Source: a virus
Strand: one strand, 5' to 3'
DNA length: 57,119 nucleotides
Virus record (IMG/VR): IMGVR_UViG_3300031840_000710
Coordinates: 1 to 57,119 of that record
Shown here: positions 1-54,029 of the stretch, one piece after another
Position numbering within the stretch: the stretch's first letter is position 1
Layout of the letters: each line of letters starts with the position of its first letter
Position numbers and translations under genes: made by a program
Notes under the pieces: generated by a model
Database searches by the model: none
Seen by the model: the letters and a program-made list of their open reading frames with translations, nothing else
Told to the model about the DNA's origin: nothing

Positions 1-113
1 TCTTGATACATGTAGAGAGAGATTTTTTTCTCTAATCTCTCATCGGTGTATGGTATGGATGGTGCACTTTCATTAAGAATAAATCTTCTCCATTCATTCA
101 ATATCTTTTTCAT
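1..113 (-). CDS. Partial gene, N-terminus with capsid-targeting-like leader
   Basis: Only the first 37 codons lie in the window; the gene runs off the left edge. Its ATG overlaps the TAA stop of the upstream gene (TAATG), as at many junctions here. The protein begins MKKILNEWRRFILNES. This resembles the short N-terminal leaders of T4 internal head proteins (MKTYQEFIAE followed by A), which are cut by the prohead protease after a (L/I)-x-E motif; here L-N-E precedes S16. Position just after terminase, portal and two small head genes is where scaffold, protease or internal head proteins are usually found. The leader is seen directly; the head-assembly role is inferred. The start is reliable, the function is not. 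Confidence 0.6.
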   Translation of the reverse strand, partial: MKKILNEWRRFILNESAPSIPYTDERLEKKISLYMYQ

Positions 114-719: not shown

Positions 720-1532
720 CTATAATTCCCCCATCAAATCTTGAATAAAGAATAATTTTTTTACCATGTTCTCGTCAAGAGGACGCTTGGTAAAATCTTC
801 AAGAATAACGGAAACTTTAGAGAGTTTTTCGTGTCGTTCTTCTCCGAGGACACCCTTACCCTCGGAAAGTTTTTGAGAGAGTTGTAGCTTCAAATTTCCC
901 ACTTCCTCGTTAATAAATGACTTAAGTCCGAGGCCATTGTCGGAGAACGATGTGATATAATTTGTAAGAAGCGATTTTTGGTTCTCTTTAAGAGAATTTT
1001 TGTAAGTATCATTGAATTTGCCAACAAAAGTTTTGTAAGTAAGATTATCAATGTGCTTCATTTCTTTTTCTTCTTTAACAGAAGGAACCAAAAGAGATTT
1101 AACATTTGTCTCAATTATAAGGCGGCTTTTTGCATTTGACTTTGTGTCTTGGAACCAAGAGCCAACTGTTGCAATGTCTTTGTAGTTTGGAACGAAGTTA
1201 TTGAAAACACTAGCGCCGAGTTGTTGATTAATCTGAGAAATCAATTTTGTTTGCGCATTGAAGACCGATTTACGATCTATAGAGTTGTAATCCTTCTTTG
1301 TCTCAACGAGAAAACGATCTGTGAAGTCTTTCGTCATCTTATCCTTATTCTCTAGAATAGATTTGTATAGATCAAGGTCTTCATTCAAAGGAGATCCTTT
1401 TCTAAAGCTTTCCTTGATTAATGTTATAATTGTTTTCTTCTTTGCTTCTTCTTGACGGACAACTGCTTTCGTTAGTTCCTTCACAAGAGATTCGTAAAGA
1501 AAAGCGGTATTTCTTTTCTTATTGTGTTTCAT
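720..1532 (-). CDS. Hypothetical protein downstream of portal
   Basis: A 270-residue, Lys-rich and predominantly helical protein starting MKHNKKRNTAFLYESL. No catalytic motif, membrane segment or Cys cluster is visible. The ATG lies inside the end of the portal gene (14-base overlap), with AAGGTG six to seven bases upstream, so translation is probably coupled to portal synthesis. The position after the portal and the helical, charged composition suit a prohead core, scaffold or head-completion protein, but the sequence itself does not identify it. Confidence 0.6.
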   Translation of the reverse strand: MKHNKKRNTAFLYESLVKELTKAVVRQEEAKKKTIITLIKESFRKGSPLNEDLDLYKSILENKDKMTKDFTDRFLVETKKDYNSIDRKSVFNAQTKLISQINQQLGASVFNNFVPNYKDIATVGSWFQDTKSNAKSRLIIETNVKSLLVPSVKEEKEMKHIDNLTYKTFVGKFNDTYKNSLKENQKSLLTNYITSFSDNGLGLKSFINEEVGNLKLQLSQKLSEGKGVLGEERHEKLSKVSVILEDFTKRPLDENMVKKLFFIQDLMGEL

Positions 1533-3489
1533 CTGTTTTCACCTTTTTTAGTAGACTTTCAATCAAGTTATCAACTTGCTTTGATGTTTTAAATAGTTTT
1601 TCTTCTTCTATTTGGCTGTTTCTTTTACTCTCAGTAATTCCACGCGCTAAAGAGTCTAGGCCACCAAATCCGGATTTTCCTTGAAAGGTTGTTCGATAAG
1701 TATTTCCATATTCTCCGGTTGCTTGGTTTTTCATTTGCTTAGAGCGCCCGCCTTTTGAATAAGAGGTTTGATGTCGTTTGTACTTGCCTCTCTTATAAGT
1801 CGGCTCATCGTCGCGTTTAGCAGGGGGCTCAGCTAGGAGAACATCATCATTTTGATCACCCCCTTCGGCACCAGGGCTCTCGTCCCCAGCAGCCTGATCT
1901 CCAGCATCACCGCCCAAATCTAAACCGCCGCCAGCATCGTCTCCACCTAAATCAAGACCTCCACCGGCATCGTCTCCACCGCCAAGATCACCAAGGCCAC
2001 CGCCTCCACCATCTCCACCCCCAGCACCGGCTGTTGCTGCTGCTTCTAGGTTTGCGGCAAATTTCTTATCATAAAACATTTCGCGTTGCATTCGTACGAA
2101 CTCTTCGTCTGATAAACCAAAGAGGTTTTCAGCAACCCATCGTTTTGAGAAATATCCTTCCGTAGCATTTGCAGCAACAGAGAATTTCTTATCCCAATGT
2201 TCAAGTTCTTGCAATTCAGCAATCTTTGATGGGTTGTTTAATTGTAATTTAAATGATAAAAGATCATCGTTTCTAAATCCCATGGTGAATAAGTGAATAA
2301 TGCCTACTTTTTCTAGTTCAGAAATCACAACTCTCTGTAATCTTTGGATTGTTCTTGCGAAACGAATGTCTTTTTGAGCAAGTGTTGTTTTGTCCTCTGT
2401 GGCTCCTTCTCCCATTGTAAGATAGGATTGTGGAACCTTTAGAGCAGAGAACAACTTGTCTCGTAAATACTTAACATCTTCGATGGTAGCAGTCATTGCG
2501 CCACCAGGAAGATTTTCTATACTTGTGTTTGATGTTCCACGAATAGGAATATAATAATCTTCTTCAATTGACAAAGGATTGTAACGAAGGTCAAGTCGTC
2601 CAGTCGTTGGATCTGTTACTTGGTGTCGCTTCATTTGTGTCATAACTTTCTGCATGTATTGTTCTACATCTTGTGGTGGAATGTTACCAACATCAATTTT
2701 AAAAACTCGTCTCTCTGGAGCACGGACGATTCGGTAAGCCATCATTGCGTCTTCTAGAAGTGTAAGTTGTCTCCAAATTCTACGAGCAGGCTCCAAAACA
2801 GATGTTCCATAAGGAGCATGCTTGTCGTTACCAAGAATACGAAAATGAGCCATTTGCCAGTTTTCCAAAGTCATACCAGCAGAATTCCACTGATACTGAA
2901 CATAATTTGGATTTGTTTCGTCTTCACCTTCCAAACGCTCAATTTCTTGAGGAGGAAGACCGATGCATGCACGAATTCCCATTGATTCTTCAATATCTAG
3001 ATAGAGGAAAAGATCTCCGTATTTACACATAGTTCTAGACCAGCCAAACAGATTATGTTCAATGTTGAGAACGTTATGATAAAGATTATGAAGAATTGTT
3101 TTGATCTCGTCATTTGGACACTTAATTCTAAGCATAGGCTGAAGAGAGGAGTGTGTTGTCATCTCATCTGCATAAATATCCAACGAGGAAGCACACTCTG
3201 GTGTATATTCCATTTGATCAAAATCAACGTAACGCTCAGCACGATTTCTGTTTGAAATCATGTTAACCGTCATAATATTCATTGGGTTGTATTCTTGCTT
3301 CTTGAATTGCTTACCAGAAGCGCTTCTAAAGCGAGATGAATATACATCCAACTGGCGTCTTCTCAGCTGGCGCCCTTGCTGTGTTCTTCTCTGTGTTATA
3401 GGTCCTGAGAATAGTTTTGTTAAAGACTTAAAAAGTCCGTTCTCTTCATTATAGGGATTCTTCCCTAAATTTCTTTTTTTTCTAGCCAT
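1519..3489 (-). CDS. Portal protein (T4 gp20-like)
   Basis: Portal vertex protein, the dodecameric ring through which DNA is packaged and to which the tail attaches. The 656-residue protein has the gp20-family layout: a basic N-terminus, the core with YTPECASSLDIYADE near residue 95, a central region with ILGNDKHAPYGTSVLEPARR and the IVRAPERRVFKIDVGN segment near residue 255, followed by the stem/crown region with LPGGAMTATIEDVKYLRDKL. Residues about 483-545 form a Gly/Asp low-complexity segment with a repeated GGGLDLGGD unit, followed by a basic tail. T4 gp20 is 524 residues as I remember it, so this tail is an extension. It directly follows the terminase gene (3-base gap), with AAGGA upstream of the ATG. 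Confidence 0.93.
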   Translation of the reverse strand: MARKKRNLGKNPYNEENGLFKSLTKLFSGPITQRRTQQGRQLRRRQLDVYSSRFRSASGKQFKKQEYNPMNIMTVNMISNRNRAERYVDFDQMEYTPECASSLDIYADEMTTHSSLQPMLRIKCPNDEIKTILHNLYHNVLNIEHNLFGWSRTMCKYGDLFLYLDIEESMGIRACIGLPPQEIERLEGEDETNPNYVQYQWNSAGMTLENWQMAHFRILGNDKHAPYGTSVLEPARRIWRQLTLLEDAMMAYRIVRAPERRVFKIDVGNIPPQDVEQYMQKVMTQMKRHQVTDPTTGRLDLRYNPLSIEEDYYIPIRGTSNTSIENLPGGAMTATIEDVKYLRDKLFSALKVPQSYLTMGEGATEDKTTLAQKDIRFARTIQRLQRVVISELEKVGIIHLFTMGFRNDDLLSFKLQLNNPSKIAELQELEHWDKKFSVAANATEGYFSKRWVAENLFGLSDEEFVRMQREMFYDKKFAANLEAAATAGAGGGDGGGGGLGDLGGGDDAGGGLDLGGDDAGGGLDLGGDAGDQAAGDESPGAEGGDQNDDVLLAEPPAKRDDEPTYKRGKYKRHQTSYSKGGRSKQMKNQATGEYGNTYRTTFQGKSGFGGLDSLARGITESKRNSQIEEEKLFKTSKQVDNLIESLLKKVKTDETQ

Positions 3490-3492
3490 TTA

Positions 3493-5076
3493 TTATCCTT
3501 TGAATATCCAAGCAAATTCTTTTCTATTGTTTAATTGTTCTTTATATTTAGTTTCAAAGTCCTGATTATACCCATCTTGTCCTTTTATCGCTGTGTTCAT
3601 TATGTTCTTTTTCATGTACATTCCATCAATTAGGGCTTTATTGTATTCTTTATCTTTCTCGGAAACTTCCAAAGCAGTGTCTCTAACCCAACACATAATC
3701 GAAAGACACATAATAATATCGTCATGATAAGATCTCATTGCTTGTGGTTTTCCATTGTTCCAAACAAACGTTCTGAATTCGTCAAATGCGCGAGAAGATC
3801 TGATCTTTATTATTTTATTTCTAATAAACTCTTCAAGTTTTGCGACGATCAAAGGGCGAGTCTTTGTTGAGGTTGTGAACCCTCCAACAGCGTTGGTCAT
3901 AAATTGCCCTTGAGATGCATCTATAAATTCATGAGTGCCTTTAATTGAGTAATAAAGATTATCGTAACCGAGAGTAACTAGTTTTTCGAAAACCGAAATG
4001 CCAATTCCATTATTTTCTACAACTAGAAGACATTTGCCGTACTCCATTCCTGCCGAGTAAAGCATTTGCGAATACATATCTAAGGTTGGCTTTCCTTGAT
4101 ACTCAGCAACGATTTCCATTGTTGCTACATTAAGCACATGAAAAACAGAGTTATCAGCCCCATCGCCTCTAGCAACATCGGCAACGAGCAAATAAGAGCT
4201 GCCCTCTTGGTACTTTTCCCATATCCAAAAATTTCTATCATATCCTGTCCTATAAGTTGGTTCTACAATTTGTTCTTGTAACCATGCAATGTCATCAGGG
4301 TGAATAACAGTATCACCCGAAGTATTGAAGTTACACTCTAATTCTTGTGCGATTTGTCGGCGAGACATATTTTTTGTCTCTTTCTTAAACCACTCTTGAT
4401 CTCTTTCCGGATGAACATCCCATGGCAAGTTAACCGGCTTAAAGTCTGAGTCTCCGTTGTCTGCTGAGACGTATGTCTTGTGAAACCAGTTTCCTACGCC
4501 ATTTGGAGTAGATAGTGCGATACAGCGTCCACCCGTTGATAGTGTAGGATAAAGACCAGTCCACAAATCATCAAGTCCGTCAATGTGAGCAGCCTCGTCA
4601 ATAATAAGAAGAGACAATGCTTCCGAACGACCAGCATCTCCAGAGGTCGATGCGGCTTTAATCTGCGAGCCATTGGAGAGTTCAAATGACGTTCTGTTGT
4701 CAACTTTAATCTTGGAGACTCTCATCCAGTCTGGAAGGTACTGCATAATGTTTTTTACTTTCTTAACAAGGTTTGCTGCTGTCTGAAACTTGGTTGCGAT
4801 CACAAGAATGTTCTTGTCTCGGTGAAACAACATAAACCAAACAGCATAAGCAGCGGAGATCGTTGAAATCCCAAGCTGTCTTGCTTTTAAGATGACAGTA
4901 AAACGAAAATCATTGAAGTCGTTGATCAAATCATCTTGATAAGGATAAGTCTTAAAAGGAATAAGTCCGTGCATAGGATGCGAAATACGACAGTAATTAT
5001 TTATGAAGTATTGCGGATCTTTGCCGGACTTAACAATTTCTTTTATTATGTCTTTCTTTGAAAGAGAGAAGGCCAT
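3493..5076 (-). CDS. Terminase large subunit (T4 gp17-like)
   Basis: Packaging motor ATPase and headful nuclease, 527 residues. The ATPase domain has a deviant Walker A (K64-A-R-Q-L-G-I-S-T72, like SRQLGKT in T4), Walker B LLIIDEAAH with D160 and E161, and the coupling motif ALSTPNG near residue 190. The C-terminal RNase H-like nuclease domain shows the expected acidic residues: D300 (LLVADVARGDG), E354 (LVVENNGIG) and D452/D453 (SYHDDIIMCLS). The start overlaps the upstream stop (TAATG). With the portal directly downstream this is the packaging core. The gp17-type nuclease suggests headful packaging, which would give circularly permuted genomes; that last point is family knowledge. Confidence 0.96.
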   Translation of the reverse strand: MAFSLSKKDIIKEIVKSGKDPQYFINNYCRISHPMHGLIPFKTYPYQDDLINDFNDFRFTVILKARQLGISTISAAYAVWFMLFHRDKNILVIATKFQTAANLVKKVKNIMQYLPDWMRVSKIKVDNRTSFELSNGSQIKAASTSGDAGRSEALSLLIIDEAAHIDGLDDLWTGLYPTLSTGGRCIALSTPNGVGNWFHKTYVSADNGDSDFKPVNLPWDVHPERDQEWFKKETKNMSRRQIAQELECNFNTSGDTVIHPDDIAWLQEQIVEPTYRTGYDRNFWIWEKYQEGSSYLLVADVARGDGADNSVFHVLNVATMEIVAEYQGKPTLDMYSQMLYSAGMEYGKCLLVVENNGIGISVFEKLVTLGYDNLYYSIKGTHEFIDASQGQFMTNAVGGFTTSTKTRPLIVAKLEEFIRNKIIKIRSSRAFDEFRTFVWNNGKPQAMRSYHDDIIMCLSIMCWVRDTALEVSEKDKEYNKALIDGMYMKKNIMNTAIKGQDGYNQDFETKYKEQLNNRKEFAWIFKG

Positions 5077-6638: not shown

Positions 6639-7027
6639 TGTGTAATTCCGGGTTTAACTGCGTACATAATGGCAATTGACATTCCAGCTCCAATAACGAA
6701 GCCACCAACAACAGGCAAAACATTATTTGTTGGTTTCAATTGCTTTATATGTTCGTCTTGTAATATAATTAGTTCGTTAAGCTTCTTGATCTCTGCGTCT
6801 GTCTGAACTTTTAAAACATCGTAGCGATACTTCTCTTCTATTCTCAGATTGTTAAGTTGAAATTCTGTCTTGGCTTCGCACATCAAGTCTTTCGTGGCGG
6901 CATCTTCAACAAGAATTCTCATTGCAGATTCATTCAAAAGGCGACCATCCCATGGAACAGTCTCACCAGTTTTCATTTCTTTGTATTTTGGCTCTTCCGC
7001 AAAGAGAAGAGGTAACAGAAAAATCAT
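6635..7027 (-). CDS. Putative spanin-like or lysis accessory protein
   Basis: A 130-residue protein with a very short hydrophobic N-terminus (MIFLLPLLFAEEP) that could be a cleavable signal or a signal anchor. It then has a GETVPWDGRLLNESAM segment, a long charged coiled-coil-like region (about residues 50-95) and a C-terminal membrane span (VLPVVGGFVIGAGMSIAIMY). The G-x-x-x-P-(F/W)-D-G-x-L-L pattern followed by a coiled coil is, as I recall, common in small phage lysis-cassette proteins next to holins. It starts as ATGA over the previous stop and follows the holin-like and coiled-coil membrane proteins. A role at the envelope during lysis is inferred from topology and neighbours. Confidence 0.5.
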   Translation of the reverse strand: MIFLLPLLFAEEPKYKEMKTGETVPWDGRLLNESAMRILVEDAATKDLMCEAKTEFQLNNLRIEEKYRYDVLKVQTDAEIKKLNELIILQDEHIKQLKPTNNVLPVVGGFVIGAGMSIAIMYAVKPGITQ

Positions 7028-7353
7028 TCTTCTTTCTCAATACCTTTTGACTTTAAGAAGTCATCGGTGTTAACCTTCTTTGCGTCCTCTAAAATCTTTG
7101 CCTTTTTTTCTTCAAATTGTAGAATGTTTTCACTAGTAGAAGCGTCTTTGTCTTCCACAAGGTCTCCGAGGTCCTCCACCAACTCTTGGCGCTGTTCTTT
7201 CTCTAAATCTTTCCATTTCTCATAGAATTTTACTTGTTGTTGTTTAGCATCTTTTGACCGACCAAGAAGGTAAAAAGCAATGGCCGTGACAAGCATCACG
7301 ATCCATTGCCAATATTTGACGACAAAGTTCTTAGTTTTTGTCCACCAAAACAT
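7024..7353 (-). CDS. Single-span membrane protein with coiled coil (i-spanin-like)
   Basis: A 109-residue protein starting MFWWTKTKNFVV at the ATG at 7353, which overlaps the preceding TAA (TAATG) and has AAGG seven bases upstream. An upstream TTG at 7368 would add five residues but is less likely. One transmembrane helix (about residues 14-34, WQWIVMLVTAIAFYLLG) is followed by a long charged, heptad-like helix rich in K, E and Q. Inner-membrane spanins (Rz type) have this N-in topology. The partner outer spanin is not obvious; the next gene product may cooperate. Function inferred. Confidence 0.5.
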   Translation of the reverse strand: MFWWTKTKNFVVKYWQWIVMLVTAIAFYLLGRSKDAKQQQVKFYEKWKDLEKEQRQELVEDLGDLVEDKDASTSENILQFEEKKAKILEDAKKVNTDDFLKSKGIEKEE

Positions 7354-7625
7354 TACATACCTTTCCAAACTTTAGCTACATCTATAGCGGATTGGCCACC
7401 GATATACATAGAAGCAATCATTGCCCAAGTATCAGGGTCAAGTCCGGACCAGATAAGAAGTCCAGTTGCGCACATAAACACAAGAAGTTTACGGGAAACC
7501 GCTTTACTTAGAACAGCATCCAAAGCACCGCCTTTTACATGTGTACATTCTTGATCGCAGTCATGCTCATGACATTTACAATCACAATCCTCACAGCAAT
7601 CACACTTTTGTTTTTCGTTTTCCAT
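7353..7625 (-). CDS. Holin-like membrane protein with Cys/His-rich N-terminus
   Basis: A 90-residue protein. Residues 8-29 contain eight cysteines (C8, 10, 11, 14, 16, 18, 23, 27) and three histidines, a dense metal-binding-type cluster. The rest has one clear membrane span (about 46-62, KLLVFMCATGLLIWSGL) and a second weaker hydrophobic stretch (66-83) containing YIGGQSAIDVAKVW. A C-terminal YIGGQ-A-x-D pattern is, as I recall, typical of small phage holins. An excellent AAGGAG precedes the ATG. It is the first gene after the proposed late promoter at 7741-7748 and begins the lysis-to-packaging operon. Holin function is inferred; the Cys head is unusual for holins. Confidence 0.5.
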   Translation of the reverse strand: MENEKQKCDCCEDCDCKCHEHDCDQECTHVKGGALDAVLSKAVSRKLLVFMCATGLLIWSGLDPDTWAMIASMYIGGQSAIDVAKVWKGM

Positions 7626-12152: not shown

Positions 12153-12180
12153 AATATAACATGCGAGGAGATTTTGTCAA
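12153..12180 (-). promoter_or_regulatory. Sigma-70-like promoter of the primase gene
   Basis: Minus strand: -35 TTGACA at 12175-12180, a 16-base spacer, and -10 TATATT at 12153-12158 preceded by ATGT. The TGA stop codon of the upstream gene (12177-12179) is part of the -35 hexamer. The predicted start point near 12146 supports translation from the ATG at 12133. Confidence 0.75.
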
Positions 12181-13010
12181 GTTTTTTCTTTATAACTTTT
12201 AAACACTTGAAGCGTCTTCTTTGCATATTCAAAGCGTTTGATGGTACTGATTAGGGATTCTGCTACCCAACTTGCTGCTTGGAAAATTTTATATGCAATC
12301 GCCATCCACCCTAAAGCGCCAGATGAAGCAGCAAAAGCGGCTTTTCCGTAAAGTTGTGCTGCTAAATTTGGAAATGTATTGGTAAAATAATTTTGTATCT
12401 TATTAAAGATTTCAGGCTTTACGTTTTCTATAAATTTACTGATGGGATTAGCAGCATCAATTTTTTTACCAACTATTTCTCCTATGGCGCCCTCTGCATA
12501 ACTCCATAATAGAGTTATGCCTATATAAGAAACTGCCGCCTTCCAACCAGATAAAGAAATGGCTTCTTCAATTTTCGTTTGTATATCTTCTATTTTTGTC
12601 GCAAACTTATCCATGTTTAAATCTTTTAGTTTTTTTATAAAAGATTTAAGCGTTTTCTTAATTGGTCTGATTCCCTTTTTCTTGATAGCCTGTATAAATA
12701 CGCCGATTTCTTTTGGATTTGTGACAACGCTCCAAATAGTTTTAAACAGATCTCCAAGATCTCCAAATTTCTTAAAAGCTTCTTCTTTAAAAGATTCTAT
12801 TTTATCGCCAACAAAATTTGCTATTTTACTAAAAAAGTTCTCCAACAATAATTGTTCTTGCAAGATATCTTTTCTTAAACTTTCTGATATGAAGTATTTA
12901 CCCTCTACTAAGGGAATTTTTATACCTAAAACATTTTGAGCATATAATGGATCTAGAGGATCTGTAGATCTTCTCCAGTTTTCCATTATTAACTTCATGT
13001 CATTTTTCAT
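12177..13010 (-). CDS. Hypothetical protein with capsid-targeting-like leader and membrane segments
   Basis: A 277-residue protein beginning MKNDMKLIMENWRRS. The MKLIMENWRR part closely matches the start of the partial gene at the left edge (MKKILNEWRR). Several (L/I)-x-E sites follow (L34-V-E36 before G, I41-S-E43 before S, L50-Q-E52), resembling T4 prohead protease cut sites. The body is Lys-rich and helical, with two hydrophobic stretches: near residues 155-175 (AAVSYIGITLLWSYAEGAIG) and a longer one near 220-255 (Ala-rich). It starts within the last codons of the RuvC gene. A packaged, ejected protein acting at the host membrane would fit, but this is inference. Being placed in an early-type operon argues for caution. 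Confidence 0.55.
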   Translation of the reverse strand: MKNDMKLIMENWRRSTDPLDPLYAQNVLGIKIPLVEGKYFISESLRKDILQEQLLLENFFSKIANFVGDKIESFKEEAFKKFGDLGDLFKTIWSVVTNPKEIGVFIQAIKKKGIRPIKKTLKSFIKKLKDLNMDKFATKIEDIQTKIEEAISLSGWKAAVSYIGITLLWSYAEGAIGEIVGKKIDAANPISKFIENVKPEIFNKIQNYFTNTFPNLAAQLYGKAAFAASSGALGWMAIAYKIFQAASWVAESLISTIKRFEYAKKTLQVFKSYKEKT

Positions 13011-13586: not shown

Positions 13587-14147
13587 TTATCTTGCAAGAC
13601 CAGCAGTGGTTTTAACCATTTCCTGCTGTGCTTTGTCTAGACTCATAAACAGTGGATTTTCCAGAACAGTTTTGGCCATTTGTATAGCACTATCAGGATT
13701 CTGTGTGTCAAGCGCTGTTTGCATTTGGGCTAATTGCATTTTTATGTTTCCACCTTTCATTGTTTTAGAACCAGCTTTTGGGCTTTTAGTCTTGGATTTT
13801 GCTCCGGATGCTACTGCGGCTATTTGCTGAGTGCCTAATCTAAAATCAGATGAACTATACTTATTGTCCGCATCAACTATTCCGGACTCTATGTCTGCTT
13901 TCATAACTTTCAGCATACTTTGTGGGAACTCTCCGTCTAAATTTCCATCTCTATCATAATCAAGGGTTTGTTCTAAAGAATTTGGCGTAAATGTGCTACC
14001 ATCAATTGTAATAGTTTCAGCACCACCGGCAAATAAAAAGGCTAAGGCTGCAGCCATTGCACCTTCGTCAAGTTGTTCTTTTTCATTCATAACATTTTGT
14101 AATTCTTCTTTAATAAGTCGTCTTATTTGTTGTGTTGTGATTTTCAT
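13587..14147 (-). CDS. Putative internal or virion protein with leader peptide and Ca-binding-like loop
   Basis: A 186-residue protein. It starts MKITTQQIRRLIKEELQNVM, an amphipathic charged leader; L26-D-E28 before G29 is a candidate prohead-protease cut site of the (L/I)-x-E type. A hydrophobic Ala-rich patch follows (residues 29-42). D63-Y-D-R-D-G-N-L-D71 resembles the DxDxDG start of an EF-hand or dockerin loop. The middle has a basic GAKSKTKSPKAGSKT linker and the rest is helical. GAGGAATTAAA precedes the ATG. It is the last gene of the long virion operon. A structural or packaged role is inferred. Confidence 0.55.
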   Translation of the reverse strand: MKITTQQIRRLIKEELQNVMNEKEQLDEGAMAAALAFLFAGGAETITIDGSTFTPNSLEQTLDYDRDGNLDGEFPQSMLKVMKADIESGIVDADNKYSSSDFRLGTQQIAAVASGAKSKTKSPKAGSKTMKGGNIKMQLAQMQTALDTQNPDSAIQMAKTVLENPLFMSLDKAQQEMVKTTAGLAR

Positions 14148-48907: not shown

Positions 48908-49804
48908 TTATTCATTTATTCTCAACATCTTCTCTACCTGAATTCTGATGTTTAAGTTTTGCAACGCATAATCTCTATTGCTGTCACCGAAAGAATGAGA
49001 ATATTTTTTAATTTCTTTTGTGATACTGTCTTCATTTACTTCTTTCTTATATTTTCTTCCAGAGCAATTAGTTGTTATTATTTCATCTATATTGTCTGGT
49101 GTTATCAATCCTTCCATCATGGGTTTTTGATATGGCCTCCAGTCTGCAACTAAAACATTTTTACCACAACTCATCGATTCATATGCTCCTCTACCTAAAG
49201 AAACAACCAAATCAGCTTCTGAAATGAAGTTCTCAATATCAAAAACAGGATTAGTAAACTTGTTATGTGCTTTGAAATTCCAGCCATTTTTCTTGCAAAT
49301 CTTTTGCAAAAATTGATTGAAACGTGAAGATTGTGACAACGATAAGATGTTCTTGAGTTCTTTGTTTGTTCTTGTTGGTTTAAATCTATCTGTATTTATG
49401 CCATTTCTTATCATGTGCGATGGTAAATTCTTTTGATTCAAATGCTCTTTCACTTCTTCAGAAATAGAAATATAATTTCTTATTGGTTCTCCAAAGGGCT
49501 GCTCTAGACTTGGTATGGTACCATGACAAACTTGATAGATTTTCTGATGATCTAAATTTAGTTTTAAAGCTTTAGCAATTGTTGTAGTATGGTTTATAAG
49601 GCAAATCTCAACGTCTCCTTCAAAAACGTTTGGAATTATATTGAAATCTTGATAAATTTTCTTAGACATAATTCCATATCTATCAGATCCAGACAACAAA
49701 AACGTTTTAATTTTTCGTCTTTTCAACTCTTCTATTACAGTATAGACATAAGTTTCAGAACCACCTATCGTATCTAAATGATTTTGTCCTATTAAGATTT
49801 TCAT
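48908..49804 (-). CDS. Glycosyltransferase, GT-B fold (GT4-like)
   Basis: A 298-residue GT-B type glycosyltransferase. The N-terminus has the typical HLDTIGGSETYVYTVIEELK acceptor-side loop, the hinge region carries IRNGINTDRFKP, and the C-terminal nucleotide-sugar part has EADLVVSLGRGAYESMSCGK with the E-S-M-S-C-G-K pattern used to hold the donor. It is shorter than most GT4 enzymes (about 350-400 residues), mainly through a reduced C-terminal domain. It is the last of five chained glycosyltransferases (ATGA overlap upstream). Targets could be phage DNA bases, virion proteins or host surface sugars; the sequence does not decide. Confidence 0.82.
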   Translation of the reverse strand: MKILIGQNHLDTIGGSETYVYTVIEELKRRKIKTFLLSGSDRYGIMSKKIYQDFNIIPNVFEGDVEICLINHTTTIAKALKLNLDHQKIYQVCHGTIPSLEQPFGEPIRNYISISEEVKEHLNQKNLPSHMIRNGINTDRFKPTRTNKELKNILSLSQSSRFNQFLQKICKKNGWNFKAHNKFTNPVFDIENFISEADLVVSLGRGAYESMSCGKNVLVADWRPYQKPMMEGLITPDNIDEIITTNCSGRKYKKEVNEDSITKEIKKYSHSFGDSNRDYALQNLNIRIQVEKMLRINE

Positions 49805-50556
49805 TCTGCTTGTCCTTTTGAATTGTTTATTATTTTTGCAGTATCAAACCTGTCTTTCCATTCAATAAGACTTCGGCCAAAATCCGATTGAGTGTGAATT
49901 GCTTTGCCCTTTCTCTTTTTCCATTTTTCAGAAATCGTAGAGTTTCCGGGTTGCCTTTCGTACAAGAAGTTTATATAGTAATCACAAGTTTGTTCCCATT
50001 GTTCTATCGAAATTGCCTTTCCGTAATGTTTTATAAATCCTTTATGGCCAACTTTCGAAAAGCTTGCAAATGGAACCCTAGTGTAAAAATGAAGATCCGG
50101 CTTAGGTCTAAATAAGGTTAAAATATCTCTAAACTCTGGGCCCATAAACTTTCTGTTAAGATATTGTTCTTCTACATCTTGTGGTGTTATATAGAAATCG
50201 AACAATCTCATTGAATATGCATCATACGAAGTGTCGAAGAGATCTATATTATCAAAGTCTGTGTATTCGTCTGCATCGAAATAATAAATCCAATCTGGCT
50301 GTGATTCTTTGGCTACTTTGTAAATAGCTTGCCTTTGGGTTCCTTCTAGAATTTGTCTTTTATGAGGATTTGTTTCCCATGTTTTGGCTTGTATTATTCT
50401 TTTTACTTTAGGAAATTTTAAACATATTTGGGTTGTGCTGTCTGTAGAGTAGTCATCAAAAATATAAATTTCATCTACTAAGTTAGAAACATGCTCTAAA
50501 GTATTAAAAATAATGTCTTCTTCATTTCTTATTCTTGTTACTCCCACTATTTTCAT
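49801..50556 (-). CDS. Glycosyltransferase, GT-A fold (GT2-like)
   Basis: A 251-residue GT2-type enzyme. It begins MKIVGVTRIRNEEDIIFNTL, has the nucleotide-binding IYIFDDYSTDSTTQI strand, and a metal-binding D-x-D in YYFDADEYTDF near residue 95. An HT-rich C-terminus (GKAIHTQSDFGRSL) follows. Proteins starting R-N-E-E-D with D-D-x-S-x-D form a large family that moves sugars with simple GT-A cores. It overlaps both neighbours by ATGA junctions, so the five enzymes are probably made together. Confidence 0.85.
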   Translation of the reverse strand: MKIVGVTRIRNEEDIIFNTLEHVSNLVDEIYIFDDYSTDSTTQICLKFPKVKRIIQAKTWETNPHKRQILEGTQRQAIYKVAKESQPDWIYYFDADEYTDFDNIDLFDTSYDAYSMRLFDFYITPQDVEEQYLNRKFMGPEFRDILTLFRPKPDLHFYTRVPFASFSKVGHKGFIKHYGKAISIEQWEQTCDYYINFLYERQPGNSTISEKWKKRKGKAIHTQSDFGRSLIEWKDRFDTAKIINNSKGQAE

Positions 50557-51566
50557 AAAACAATACTCGCTATTTCTTCATTCCATATTTTACCAAACAA
50601 CACTTCGTCACTTCTTAATTGTTTATCGCCTATTTTTTTTCCACTCAAACTCACAGACTCATCATGATAAAAAAATAAATCTTTGCCAAAATAATAACAA
50701 TGTTTGCCTTGTGTTATTATTTTTAAACAAAGATCTGTATCCTGGAAGTTCTTGGACAGAGAGGGATTGAAACCACCAACTTCTACAAAATCTTTTAAAT
50801 TGACTATCATCAAAGCACCTGTGAGACAGCTTACTCCTTTATTACAATTGACTCTAGGATCTTCTGGGCACACAAAGCGCTTGTAATGAAAAGGTGTTAA
50901 GGTCTGGATATTTTTCATTAAAGGAAGAAACAACGAGCCTCCGTATTGGGTTGTGTTTCTCCATTTACCGGCTACATGTTTATAAAACTCTTTTATATTT
51001 TGACTGTCTTCTTCTTTTATAAAAGATATTTCCTTTGGAGGATACAGTAATTTCGTTCCGGACACTGATGATTTATTGGATCGGTGTCTTTGCAAAAAGT
51101 CTAATAATGACTCTTTGTTTTTTGTGTACAAGTCATTATTCCAAAAAATAACTTCATTATTTCCTTTTTTATAGCATATCAAGCATGCGATATTATTCAG
51201 CATAGAAAAATTAAATCCTTTATCATTTTCAATCCTCAAATAACAGCATTCAGATGCAATAGTAAATATATCTTCATCCGAGTTGTCATCTACAATTATT
51301 ACATTACAAACAGATAGCACATCATTGTTTTTAAGGTTTGCAACTGTTTTAGCCAAAAGCTCAGACATGTTTTTTGTTGGAATTATAATTGTTGGTTTTT
51401 CTTCATCAAAGTCTTTTTCTTTCCACACACAAGAGTAATTTATTTCTAAAACCTCAAACAAACTCTTTCCGCCAAGTGCTTCTTTTTTTAGTTTGATTTC
51501 TTTTTGAATTATTTCAAATTTATCTGATATATTATTCCGGAAGTCAAACTCATAAAAGGATTTCAT
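50553..51566 (-). CDS. Glycosyltransferase, GT-A fold (GT2), rhamnosyl/chondroitin-type
   Basis: A 337-residue GT2 enzyme from the ATG at 51566 (MKSFYEFDF), which has AGAGGAAG upstream; the ATG at 51644 lies inside the previous gene. Visible parts: KPTIIIPTKNMSELLAKT, VIIVDDNSDEDIF, the W-N-N-D-L site standing for DxD, GALMIVNLKDFVEVGGFNP, and the acceptor-base region FQDTDLCLKI followed by YHDESVSLSG. That order is typical of GT2 enzymes that transfer rhamnose or related sugars. About 75 N-terminal residues before the GT-A core have no recognised role. Confidence 0.85.
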   Translation of the reverse strand: MKSFYEFDFRNNISDKFEIIQKEIKLKKEALGGKSLFEVLEINYSCVWKEKDFDEEKPTIIIPTKNMSELLAKTVANLKNNDVLSVCNVIIVDDNSDEDIFTIASECCYLRIENDKGFNFSMLNNIACLICYKKGNNEVIFWNNDLYTKNKESLLDFLQRHRSNKSSVSGTKLLYPPKEISFIKEEDSQNIKEFYKHVAGKWRNTTQYGGSLFLPLMKNIQTLTPFHYKRFVCPEDPRVNCNKGVSCLTGALMIVNLKDFVEVGGFNPSLSKNFQDTDLCLKIITQGKHCYYFGKDLFFYHDESVSLSGKKIGDKQLRSDEVLFGKIWNEEIASIVL

Positions 51567-52767
51567 ATTCGTCTTCCTCTTGTTTGCCGTTGATCTGCTC
51601 GCAAAAACCTTGAAACAACTTCTCATCAGAGAATTTATCTCCAATAATCGTTTTCAATTCCTCTGCTTGAGCTTTCATCTTATCGCTATTTTTAACAGCC
51701 TTTCTCAATGCCATCTTATAAGATCCTTGATCTGCAAAAGCCCACATTTGTTCTTTGTCAATAACTCCGGGCCAAACAGCTTGTGACTGGACTGGTCGCA
51801 TAGAATAATCCACTTCATTAAAGTAGTTGTTTCCATCATGATGAAGGAAATCAAGCTGCCCAGACCAGCCAATCGTTGTAATTGGTAATCCTTCACGAGC
51901 TGCTTCAAACATAGGAAGACCAAAACCTTCACCGTGAGCGATGTTAATCATTCCTTTAATCTTTTCATGTTGATATAAACCGGTCATTTGACCAGCAGTA
52001 AGGTCTCCATGGAGAAGATAGACAGAACACTTGCGATCTTTATATTCACCAACCAATTGTGACATTCTTTTTTGAAGATGATCCCAATCAATTATTGAGT
52101 TTGAAGCGATATTTGTTTTAATAAGCAAACCTACTTCTTGATCTATAAACTCTTCAATAAACCATTTTACCATATTATCAAAGTTTTTACGAGGAGATAT
52201 TTGAGATACAGCAAGAAAATTAAAATCGTGCTTCAACTCTATCTCTTCAATTGGCTCTGGGTCTGCTCTTGGGGTATTCTCCCATACAACTTCAACGGGT
52301 GTTTCTATCTTATATGGATGACTTTCGCCTGTTTGTTGATTTTGTGCTTGAGCCACTGTATCTACCAAAGAAGTTTTTGCATGGTTTGACACAACGAGGA
52401 CTTTATCCATTTCATTACATTTAGGAAGCCACTGTGGTGAACACATATTGGTCTCAATACCAGCAGTATAGCCTATATTTATTGGTGCTAATTTTTGGAA
52501 TTCATTGGGGATTGTTACTTGCAGAGAAATATCTGCTTGTATTTGTTTTCTCTGAATGAGAACTTGTGTTAAAGTAATCTTCTCATCCATCCATTGGCGA
52601 AACTCAGAGTCTTGCCATACCCAACCAGTGCGTCCCCAAGGGATAGCCATAATAAAGATATCAAATAAATCTTCTCGGGATCTCAATGCTCTCAGAGCAA
52701 ATCGTGCTTGCTCTCCATATCCTGATTGTGACAGAACAGGTGCTCTTACTAAAATTTTCTTTTTCAC
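51550..52767 (-). CDS. Glycosyltransferase, GT-B fold (GT4-like)
   Basis: A 405-residue GT-B enzyme. It starts from GTG at 52767 with GGAGG four to five bases upstream; the GTGA overlaps the stop of the previous gene. N-terminal SQSGYGEQARFALRALRS is the acceptor loop, the hinge region carries FLAVSQISPRKNFDNMV, and the donor site has IAHGEGFGLPMFEAAREGLP, the E-G-F-G-x-P-x-x-E-A pattern of GT4. The C-terminal region is helical and acidic. As the second gene after the sigma-70-like promoter at 54060-54088 it should be expressed early or in mid-infection. Confidence 0.88.
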   Translation of the reverse strand: MKKKILVRAPVLSQSGYGEQARFALRALRSREDLFDIFIMAIPWGRTGWVWQDSEFRQWMDEKITLTQVLIQRKQIQADISLQVTIPNEFQKLAPINIGYTAGIETNMCSPQWLPKCNEMDKVLVVSNHAKTSLVDTVAQAQNQQTGESHPYKIETPVEVVWENTPRADPEPIEEIELKHDFNFLAVSQISPRKNFDNMVKWFIEEFIDQEVGLLIKTNIASNSIIDWDHLQKRMSQLVGEYKDRKCSVYLLHGDLTAGQMTGLYQHEKIKGMINIAHGEGFGLPMFEAAREGLPITTIGWSGQLDFLHHDGNNYFNEVDYSMRPVQSQAVWPGVIDKEQMWAFADQGSYKMALRKAVKNSDKMKAQAEELKTIIGDKFSDEKLFQGFCEQINGKQEEDEYEILL

Positions 52768-54029
52768 GCTACCTCCATAAAACGAATTCCTTTATAGTTT
52801 GACCTTGTTTCCCAAGATCCACCTTCTTCAACAACTTGATCAATAAATTCAACCCACGTAGAATTGAAGTTTTCAAAGTTATAATTGTCTTCAACGTGCT
52901 TGCGCCCTAACATACCCATCTTACGTCTTTCAGAAGCAGGAATGTTGTAAATCTTTGACAATGCCGAATGGAATTGAGCTTTGTCAACACGGTCTTCATA
53001 AATATAAGGAACATCTTGAGACCCGATAACAGACTTTGAGGAGGGGAGGAGGGGGATGCCAAACCAATCTTTTCCGTTGGTCACTTGCTCCTGCAATCCA
53101 CCGGTCATAGTAACTACAATAGGTGTTCCGCAGGACAGTGATTCCAAAGTTGCAAGGCCGAAACCTTCCGCATCTGAAATATTAATAGTACAGTCAGCCA
53201 TGTTGTACATAGCCGCTAAATGTTCTGGGGGGATCTTATTGATTGACAAAAGTACTTGTCTGTTATCGAGCCCAAGATGTTCGATAATGTGATTGAGGTC
53301 TTGACCGTGAGGATCTTTTGGATCTGTATGCATAATAAGTTGTGCCTTATCGTGAAGGTTGTTCTTATCAAGCCATTCTTTGAACCAGTAAATTAAAGTT
53401 CCAGATTGTTTTCTTCTAGCGTTTCTGTTATTCCAGAAGAAAATAACCTTGTCTTGGTCAGACTCAGGGAGCGAATCTTTTCTAAGTTTTTCAATACTTT
53501 CTGGAGTTAATGGCTTAAAAACCTCTCCATCTACAGCGTGTGGAATATATTTTCTTTTCACTTCCGGTGCTGCTTTGGCTACAATGTCATCAGTTACCTT
53601 AGAGATTGTTGCAATTGCGTCGTTAGAAATATAATACTTTCTATTAAACATTGGTACAGGATAATTGTCCCATACATGATAATATACCATTGAGCAAAGA
53701 GGACGCACTTCGTTCTCAATTTGCCATAACCAACCCCAAAAACGGGGATCAGTCATAAACCACAAAACGTCCGGCTTCTCTGTACGGAGAACCGAACGAA
53801 TCATTTCAGGTGTTCCGTAACCATCTACGGGAATAATTTTCCAATCTTGACCCCATGGATCAACTGCTATAGGGTTGTAGTCATTGTGCTTCATCGCCCC
53901 ACCAAAGGAGATGATAGAATACCGTCCGGTGTTCAGAAGTGCTTCGCAAACATATTTTGTTTGAGTTCCGACACCGGACGGGGACAGGGGATGGTCCGAT
54001 AATGTTAAAATTTTTATTTTCTTAGTCAA
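52764..54029 (-). CDS. Glycosyltransferase, GT-B fold (GT4-like), first of five
   Basis: A 421-residue GT4-type enzyme. N-terminal LSDHPLSPSGVGTQTKYVCE is the usual P-x-G-V-G-x-x loop; KYIPHAVDGEVFKPL is the hinge N-terminal; FFWNNRNARRKQSGTL is the R-K site for the donor phosphate; and ISDAEGFGLATLESLSCGTP is the E-G-F-G-L-x-x-L-E motif. It lies 24 bases downstream of the predicted transcript start and heads a chain of five overlapping glycosyltransferase genes. Candidate substrates are modified DNA bases or virion proteins; no base-modifying enzyme is in this window to decide. Confidence 0.9.
   Translation of the reverse strand: MTKKIKILTLSDHPLSPSGVGTQTKYVCEALLNTGRYSIISFGGAMKHNDYNPIAVDPWGQDWKIIPVDGYGTPEMIRSVLRTEKPDVLWFMTDPRFWGWLWQIENEVRPLCSMVYYHVWDNYPVPMFNRKYYISNDAIATISKVTDDIVAKAAPEVKRKYIPHAVDGEVFKPLTPESIEKLRKDSLPESDQDKVIFFWNNRNARRKQSGTLIYWFKEWLDKNNLHDKAQLIMHTDPKDPHGQDLNHIIEHLGLDNRQVLLSINKIPPEHLAAMYNMADCTINISDAEGFGLATLESLSCGTPIVVTMTGGLQEQVTNGKDWFGIPLLPSSKSVIGSQDVPYIYEDRVDKAQFHSALSKIYNIPASERRKMGMLGRKHVEDNYNFENFNSTWVEFIDQVVEEGGSWETRSNYKGIRFMEVA

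Follow-up and report, generated by a model that had tools for sequence, protein, structure and literature searches.

In the T-even phages, the internal proteins share only a leader; the T4 proteins IPI-III are injected and inhibit type IV restriction enzymes (PMC3012670, PMC12373910), and for IPIII the first ten residues are enough for packaging, targeting being governed by residues 4 and 7 and processing by 8 and 10 (PMC9026906). Since nothing but the leader is common to these proteins, finding internal-protein genes by their leader is already established in T-even phages. Here we consider three leader-bearing genes of an ocean phage, the IMG/VR virus record IMGVR_UViG_3300031840_000710, of which we analysed a 57-kb stretch (57,119 nucleotides; hereafter the window). 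Their leaders fall into two classes, W and K, both of which most likely are capsid-targeting sequences (CTSs) of a T4-type internal-protein system, docking, cutting, packaging and ejection in this lineage being inferred. The leaders end in a head protease cut site and, therefore, most likely label proteins for packing into the head and delivery into the host.

All three genes lie on the minus strand, and their N-termini were read where the first-pass annotation had located them. The gene at the left edge (1-113, 5′ end) starts at position 113 with MKKILNEWRRFILNE↓S (the arrow marks the predicted cut); this W-class leader (69-113), with its predicted cut at LNE↓S, is kept in 10 orthologues. The gene runs past the window's left edge, truncated by the contig end, and is completed in an identical contig, L002 (5887-6597, 236 amino acids). 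Its product has a GNAT acetyltransferase domain (PF00583, 26.8 bits against a Pfam cut-off of 20.7) and its best Foldseek matches are acetyltransferases, yet every E-value is above 0.001 and TM scores are low. The second gene (12177-13010) encodes a helical protein with the N-terminus MKNDMKLIMENWRR, annotated from 13010, the leader Met being at 12998; the W-class leader region, MKLIMENWRR...IPLVE↓G, covers 12903-12998. Compared with 12 homologues, the bodies are merely 21-29% identical, while W8, E32 (PLxE↓S/G/A) and E53 are invariant; a fold search for this protein gave no match. The third gene (13587-14147) starts from 14147 with MKITTQQIRRLIKEELQNVMNEKEQLDE↓G, a K-class leader (14064-14147), and a homology search with its product returned no relatives.

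A lone MKxIxxxWRR tag had been proposed. It does unite the first two proteins, but the leader of 13587-14147 belongs to a different class, and hence we speak of two. The accompanying proposal, that (L/I)-x-E precedes a small residue in each case, holds in full for the left-edge protein, where L-N-E↓S directly adjoins the leader. For 12177-13010, L-V-E↓G is present with its E invariant in the 12 homologues, but it sits at residue 32 and not directly after the leader; the K protein holds L-D-E↓G and also M-N-E↓K as candidate sites. The VLGIxLPLNES region of the 12177 family also begins a 2414-amino-acid open reading frame (ORF) without W leader in L084 (G010:160952-161470).

How widespread such leaders are was seen with a degenerate DNA pattern encoding M-K-x-I-x-x-x-W-[RK]-x-[FY], run against the whole of IMG/VR. 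It matched at least 119 stretches, whereas the reversed pattern matched once; among the matches listed there were 114 distinct ORFs, whose bodies form 66 clusters without detectable similarity to each other, and the consensus of these listed matches is MKLIMENWKRFLKE↓S/G/A. Across 257 Gb of genomes from bacteria and archaea the same pattern matched 40 stretches, nearly all of them not gene starts; two were convincing, L459 and L477, the latter being a phage contig that also encodes a tail sheath. The W leader is, therefore, not a product of chance. Some W-pattern matches containing QDWKKYIEG proved to be internal to an unrelated 228-amino-acid protein, and those recognised were excluded from the leader profile. 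A pattern for starts like that of 13587-14147 found at least 165 ORFs in at least 137 body clusters in IMG/VR, with the consensus MKITKxQLKQIIKEELxxxLxE↓G; a strict regular expression for K-like starts had given little signal because it was too crude. In columns that neither search pattern covered, the leaders converge on L/I/V-x-E, the rule of the T4 protease gp21. Beyond residue 11, the last of the W pattern, 49 of 66 clusters have L, V or I at residue 12 and 44 of 66 have E at residue 14; for K, [LIV]xE occurs at residues 17-24 in 160 of 308 representatives (52%), against 8-11% in later windows and 66 ± 7 of the 308 after shuffling. A profile search of 5 Mb of contigs gave 743 leader proteins, or 698 in 467 body clusters after filtering, totals in which a small number of chance matches from cellular contigs remain. 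In both classes, then, a short N-terminal leader is common to otherwise unrelated proteins, as in T4. When the bare leaders were searched by tblastn against cultured phages, W gave nothing and K a single weak match, in an uncultured huge phage.

Judged by motif, the W class closely resembles the T4 CTS. When MKTYQEFIAE, taken here as the start of IPIII and given by the first-pass annotation for T4 internal proteins, is right-aligned with (MKLI)MENWKRFLKE, the pairs Y4/W8, F7/F11, I8/L12 and E10/E14 all match, so that the class has all four CTS residues in register (W8, F/Y11, L12, E14). The K class does not match; it would work like a CTS, yet outside the T4 sequence frame.

That the leaders are modules can be seen where they have been exchanged. 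Twelve body clusters hold both classes, a few of them resting on short or repeat-like matches. In the clearest swapped pairs homology begins at LxE or a few residues beyond: MKNLMENWEKF is followed by LNEDGHDDV where MKFTKTQLRQIIKEELET is followed by LQEDGHEDV, and MKLLLENWREF by LTEQNIAYSG where MKITNEQLKQIIKEELSAV is followed by LGEGGVAYSG, the alignment starting in each case at the second segment. In other pairs its onset is deeper inside the body. An L/I-x-E prohead protease site thus stands at the leader end, as in T4-type CTSs. At most leader positions the synonymous codons are almost as variable as those of the bodies (W codons 2, 4 and 6 vary less than body codons), with residues fixed, including L12 and E14; it is, therefore, the peptide and not the DNA that is held. 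Three single ORFs (L117:2410-4602, L423:406-1611 and L394:3522-4709) have a second, internal leader, as if two tagged cargos were fused, but some such ORFs may have mis-set starts.

The cargo is diverse. By Pfam, in two alignments that include some mixed W/K clusters, W leaders precede GNAT, S-AdoMet lyase, Nudix, DnaJ, cytidylyltransferase-like, C5 DNA methylase, exonuclease, kinase, ADP-ribosyltransferase, guanylate kinase, thioredoxin, M23, LysM, pentapeptide and tRNA-ligase-CPD (2H) domains; NMNAT-like domains also occur among tagged cargo, and K cargo mostly has no recognised domain. Leader genes cluster in arrays, 42 of 55 lying within 2 kb of another in the genomes that have them (12 ± 4 expected); K and W genes do not adjoin each other beyond chance.

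In L002, the GNAT gene starts about 1.1 kb upstream of an S77 prohead protease gene (6995-7603, outside the window; PF03420, 8e-32, 110.8 bits against a cut-off of 27). The order is GNAT (236 amino acids), a 103-amino-acid protein, the 203-amino-acid Peptidase_S77, a 236-amino-acid protein starting MKITNKKIKEIIKEEL and a conserved 137-amino-acid protein, and so the leader finding sits in a head-gene block. Substrates of the lineage itself obey the same rule: near residue 58, all 17 major capsid proteins found conserve L-[RK]-E with A, S or V next to it, and near residue 44 an L-x-E-type site is conserved in the scaffolds. Within the window, the minus strand further encodes a T4-type, gp20-like portal protein (1519-3489; phrog_213, 3e-74) and the terminase large subunit (3493-5076; phrog_2, 3e-49). 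The T4 late-promoter motif TATAAATA was not enriched upstream of leader genes, a result that is uninformative because the motif is likewise absent at the major capsid gene. The idea that the K leader was copied from the conserved post-protease core protein was dropped, the similarity being weak (about the 97th percentile). After that 137-amino-acid protein, L002 (8733-8948) and other loci of the lineage encode a small basic bS21-like protein whose counterpart in phage Mel-JY01 is annotated RpsU. A run of genes at 48908-54029 of the window appears glycosyltransferase-like by eye.

Evidence from virions comes from cultured relatives, T4-like cyanophages with published virion proteomes. By mass spectrometry, S-CREM2 virions contain a SAM hydrolase, an APH/ChoK-like kinase, a cytidylyltransferase and a Cas9-like protein (PMC10665884). 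The first three start with MKDFDSFLEE, MKRFDAFLTE and MKNFSSFLTE, respectively, and the Cas9-like protein has ...RFASFMAE↓A at a more internal position. In S-SCSM1 and S-SZBM1, the NMNATs detected in virions begin with MKSFLQFLKE↓A and MRFRQFIIE↓A, respectively. Such T4-type cyanophage leaders (aromatic-x-x-F-[LI]-x-E) align residue by residue with the W leader. In S-CREM2 the strict T4 motif is found in 3 of the 15 non-structural virion proteins and in none of 75 other coding sequences, taken from two genome stretches (P = 0.004); over the whole genome, the T4-type DNA pattern occurs at only two places, both among these virion enzymes. One S-SZBM1 gene with the motif is missing from the published virion list. 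Two adjoining small genes near terL (SSZBM1_191 and 192; L488:18312-19126), with the T4-type starts MKSFKSFLSE and MKTFKQYITEA, are absent from that list. The W-tagged SAM-lyase-like family has homologues in cultured T4-like phages; these share an SSL-S/A-R start that lies behind other leaders, after x-x-E, usually L-x-E: ...SLEE↓SSLSR in S-CREM2, MQFKQYILGE↓SSLSR in the Microcystis phage Mel-JY01, ...ALSE↓SSLSR in an Alishewanella phage and ...KFNE↓SSLAR in Campylobacter CP220. In Mel-JY01 (WWT39336, L481:1510-2796) the C-terminus of this homologue is a K-leader-like motif, EGMKITREQLKEKIRIIVKRVLNEAMK, ending LNE↓A.

Leader modules, an LxE boundary, exchange of leaders between homologous bodies, a protease gene and diverse cargo can thus be read from the DNA. 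Together with effector-like cargo and relatives' virion proteomes with T4-type leaders, they support the capsid-targeting function that the first-pass annotation had suggested. The amphipathic leader would dock the new protein onto the prohead core during head assembly, the S77 (gp21-like) protease would cut after the L/I/V-x-E that ends the leader and release the cargo inside the head, and, once the head has filled with DNA, the cargo would be ejected alongside that DNA and immediately affect the defence and metabolism of the host. For this phage, the cargo would include the GNAT acetyltransferase, the all-helical protein and one protein of no known family.

Several points weigh against this interpretation. 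The virion data come from cultured relatives, whose leaders are of the T4 type and neither W nor K, and the K leader lacks the T4 aromatic frame. Most virion-detected hypothetical proteins of S-CREM2 have no leader, and its authors caution that carry-over is possible (PMC10665884). Some cargo, such as thioredoxin and guanylate kinase, could be ordinary metabolic enzymes. Finally, 24 of the 25 contigs that bear leaders and reach at least 100 kb have an S77 protease, which is consistent with capsid targeting but not discriminating, because the count covers leader-bearing contigs and one chance-hit contig also has S77.

One alternative is that the leaders send proteins elsewhere in the virion, to the tail tube or baseplate. 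Effectors of contractile injection systems do use N-terminal signals, and some leader genes lie among tail genes (in L477, adjoining the tail sheath). We nevertheless consider it improbable: the LxE ends fit the head protease rule and the capsid and scaffold sites of the lineage, the GNAT gene of the window adjoins head genes, and the W leader agrees with the CTS of T4 heads. We hold equally little by a second alternative, in which the leaders are intracellular signals (for a replication compartment, the membrane or regulated turnover, for example) and their proteins stay out of the virion altogether. Enzymes useful in the infected cell, and virion data known from relatives only, could be so accommodated, but it leaves unexplained both the LxE ends and the homologous SAM hydrolase, kinase and NMNAT with T4-type leaders in relatives' virions. 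Least credible is a mere mobile gene-start cassette (a translation or recombination hot spot) whose peptide has no role, which would suit the tandem arrays and the quieter W codons but not leader codons that vary almost like body codons around fixed residues, nor different leader classes on homologous bodies.

A broader proposition may be made, for and against which we find the case evenly balanced: that uncultured marine phages related to T4 arm their virions with hundreds of injected families by means of two or more interchangeable codes for the head, K being unrelated to the T4 CTS. As cargos exchange these codes close to the protease site, a sequence scan alone could then list most injected effectors of ocean phages. 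Injected proteins face the defences of the host before any other phage molecule does, and to our knowledge very few have been described apart from those of T4 and P1. Should the leaders indeed be address tags for the head, a simple N-terminal pattern names hundreds of candidates in ocean phages, among them SAM lyases, 2H phosphoesterase-like, Nudix and ADP-ribosyltransferase-like proteins, kinases, DnaJ and many unknown folds, and the recurrence of SAM hydrolase, kinase and NMNAT in cyanophage virions would be explained.

Three kinds of described system come closest. In phiKZ and SPN3US, as is proposed here, N-terminal propeptides of head proteins are cut after E by a gp21 homologue and many proteins are ejected (PMC5694885, PMC9026906), but these propeptides are mostly longer, have an S/A-x-E motif and include no leader common to many unrelated bodies. 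The virion enzymes of S-CREM2, S-SCSM1 and S-SZBM1 are of the same SAM hydrolase, kinase and NMNAT types as the cargo here, and their leaders also end in L/I-x-E; they differ in being virion-detected and in having T4-type leaders in place of W or K, and the sections of the published accounts considered describe no targeting signal. The third is T4 itself, where the CTS of IPI-III and Alt is likewise a short N-terminal leader on otherwise unrelated proteins, with an L/I-x-E cut site, an S77 protease and cargo that encounters the defences or machinery of the host. The aromatic-x-x-F-[IL]-x-E frame is shared by the W leader, which is four residues longer with W replacing Y; the K leader has no T4 sequence match. 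Unlike in T4, the presumably packaged cargo here spans hundreds of families, many of them enzymes, and leader classes swap on homologous cargo. The proposed system belongs to an established type and stands out by the unusual breadth of its cargo.
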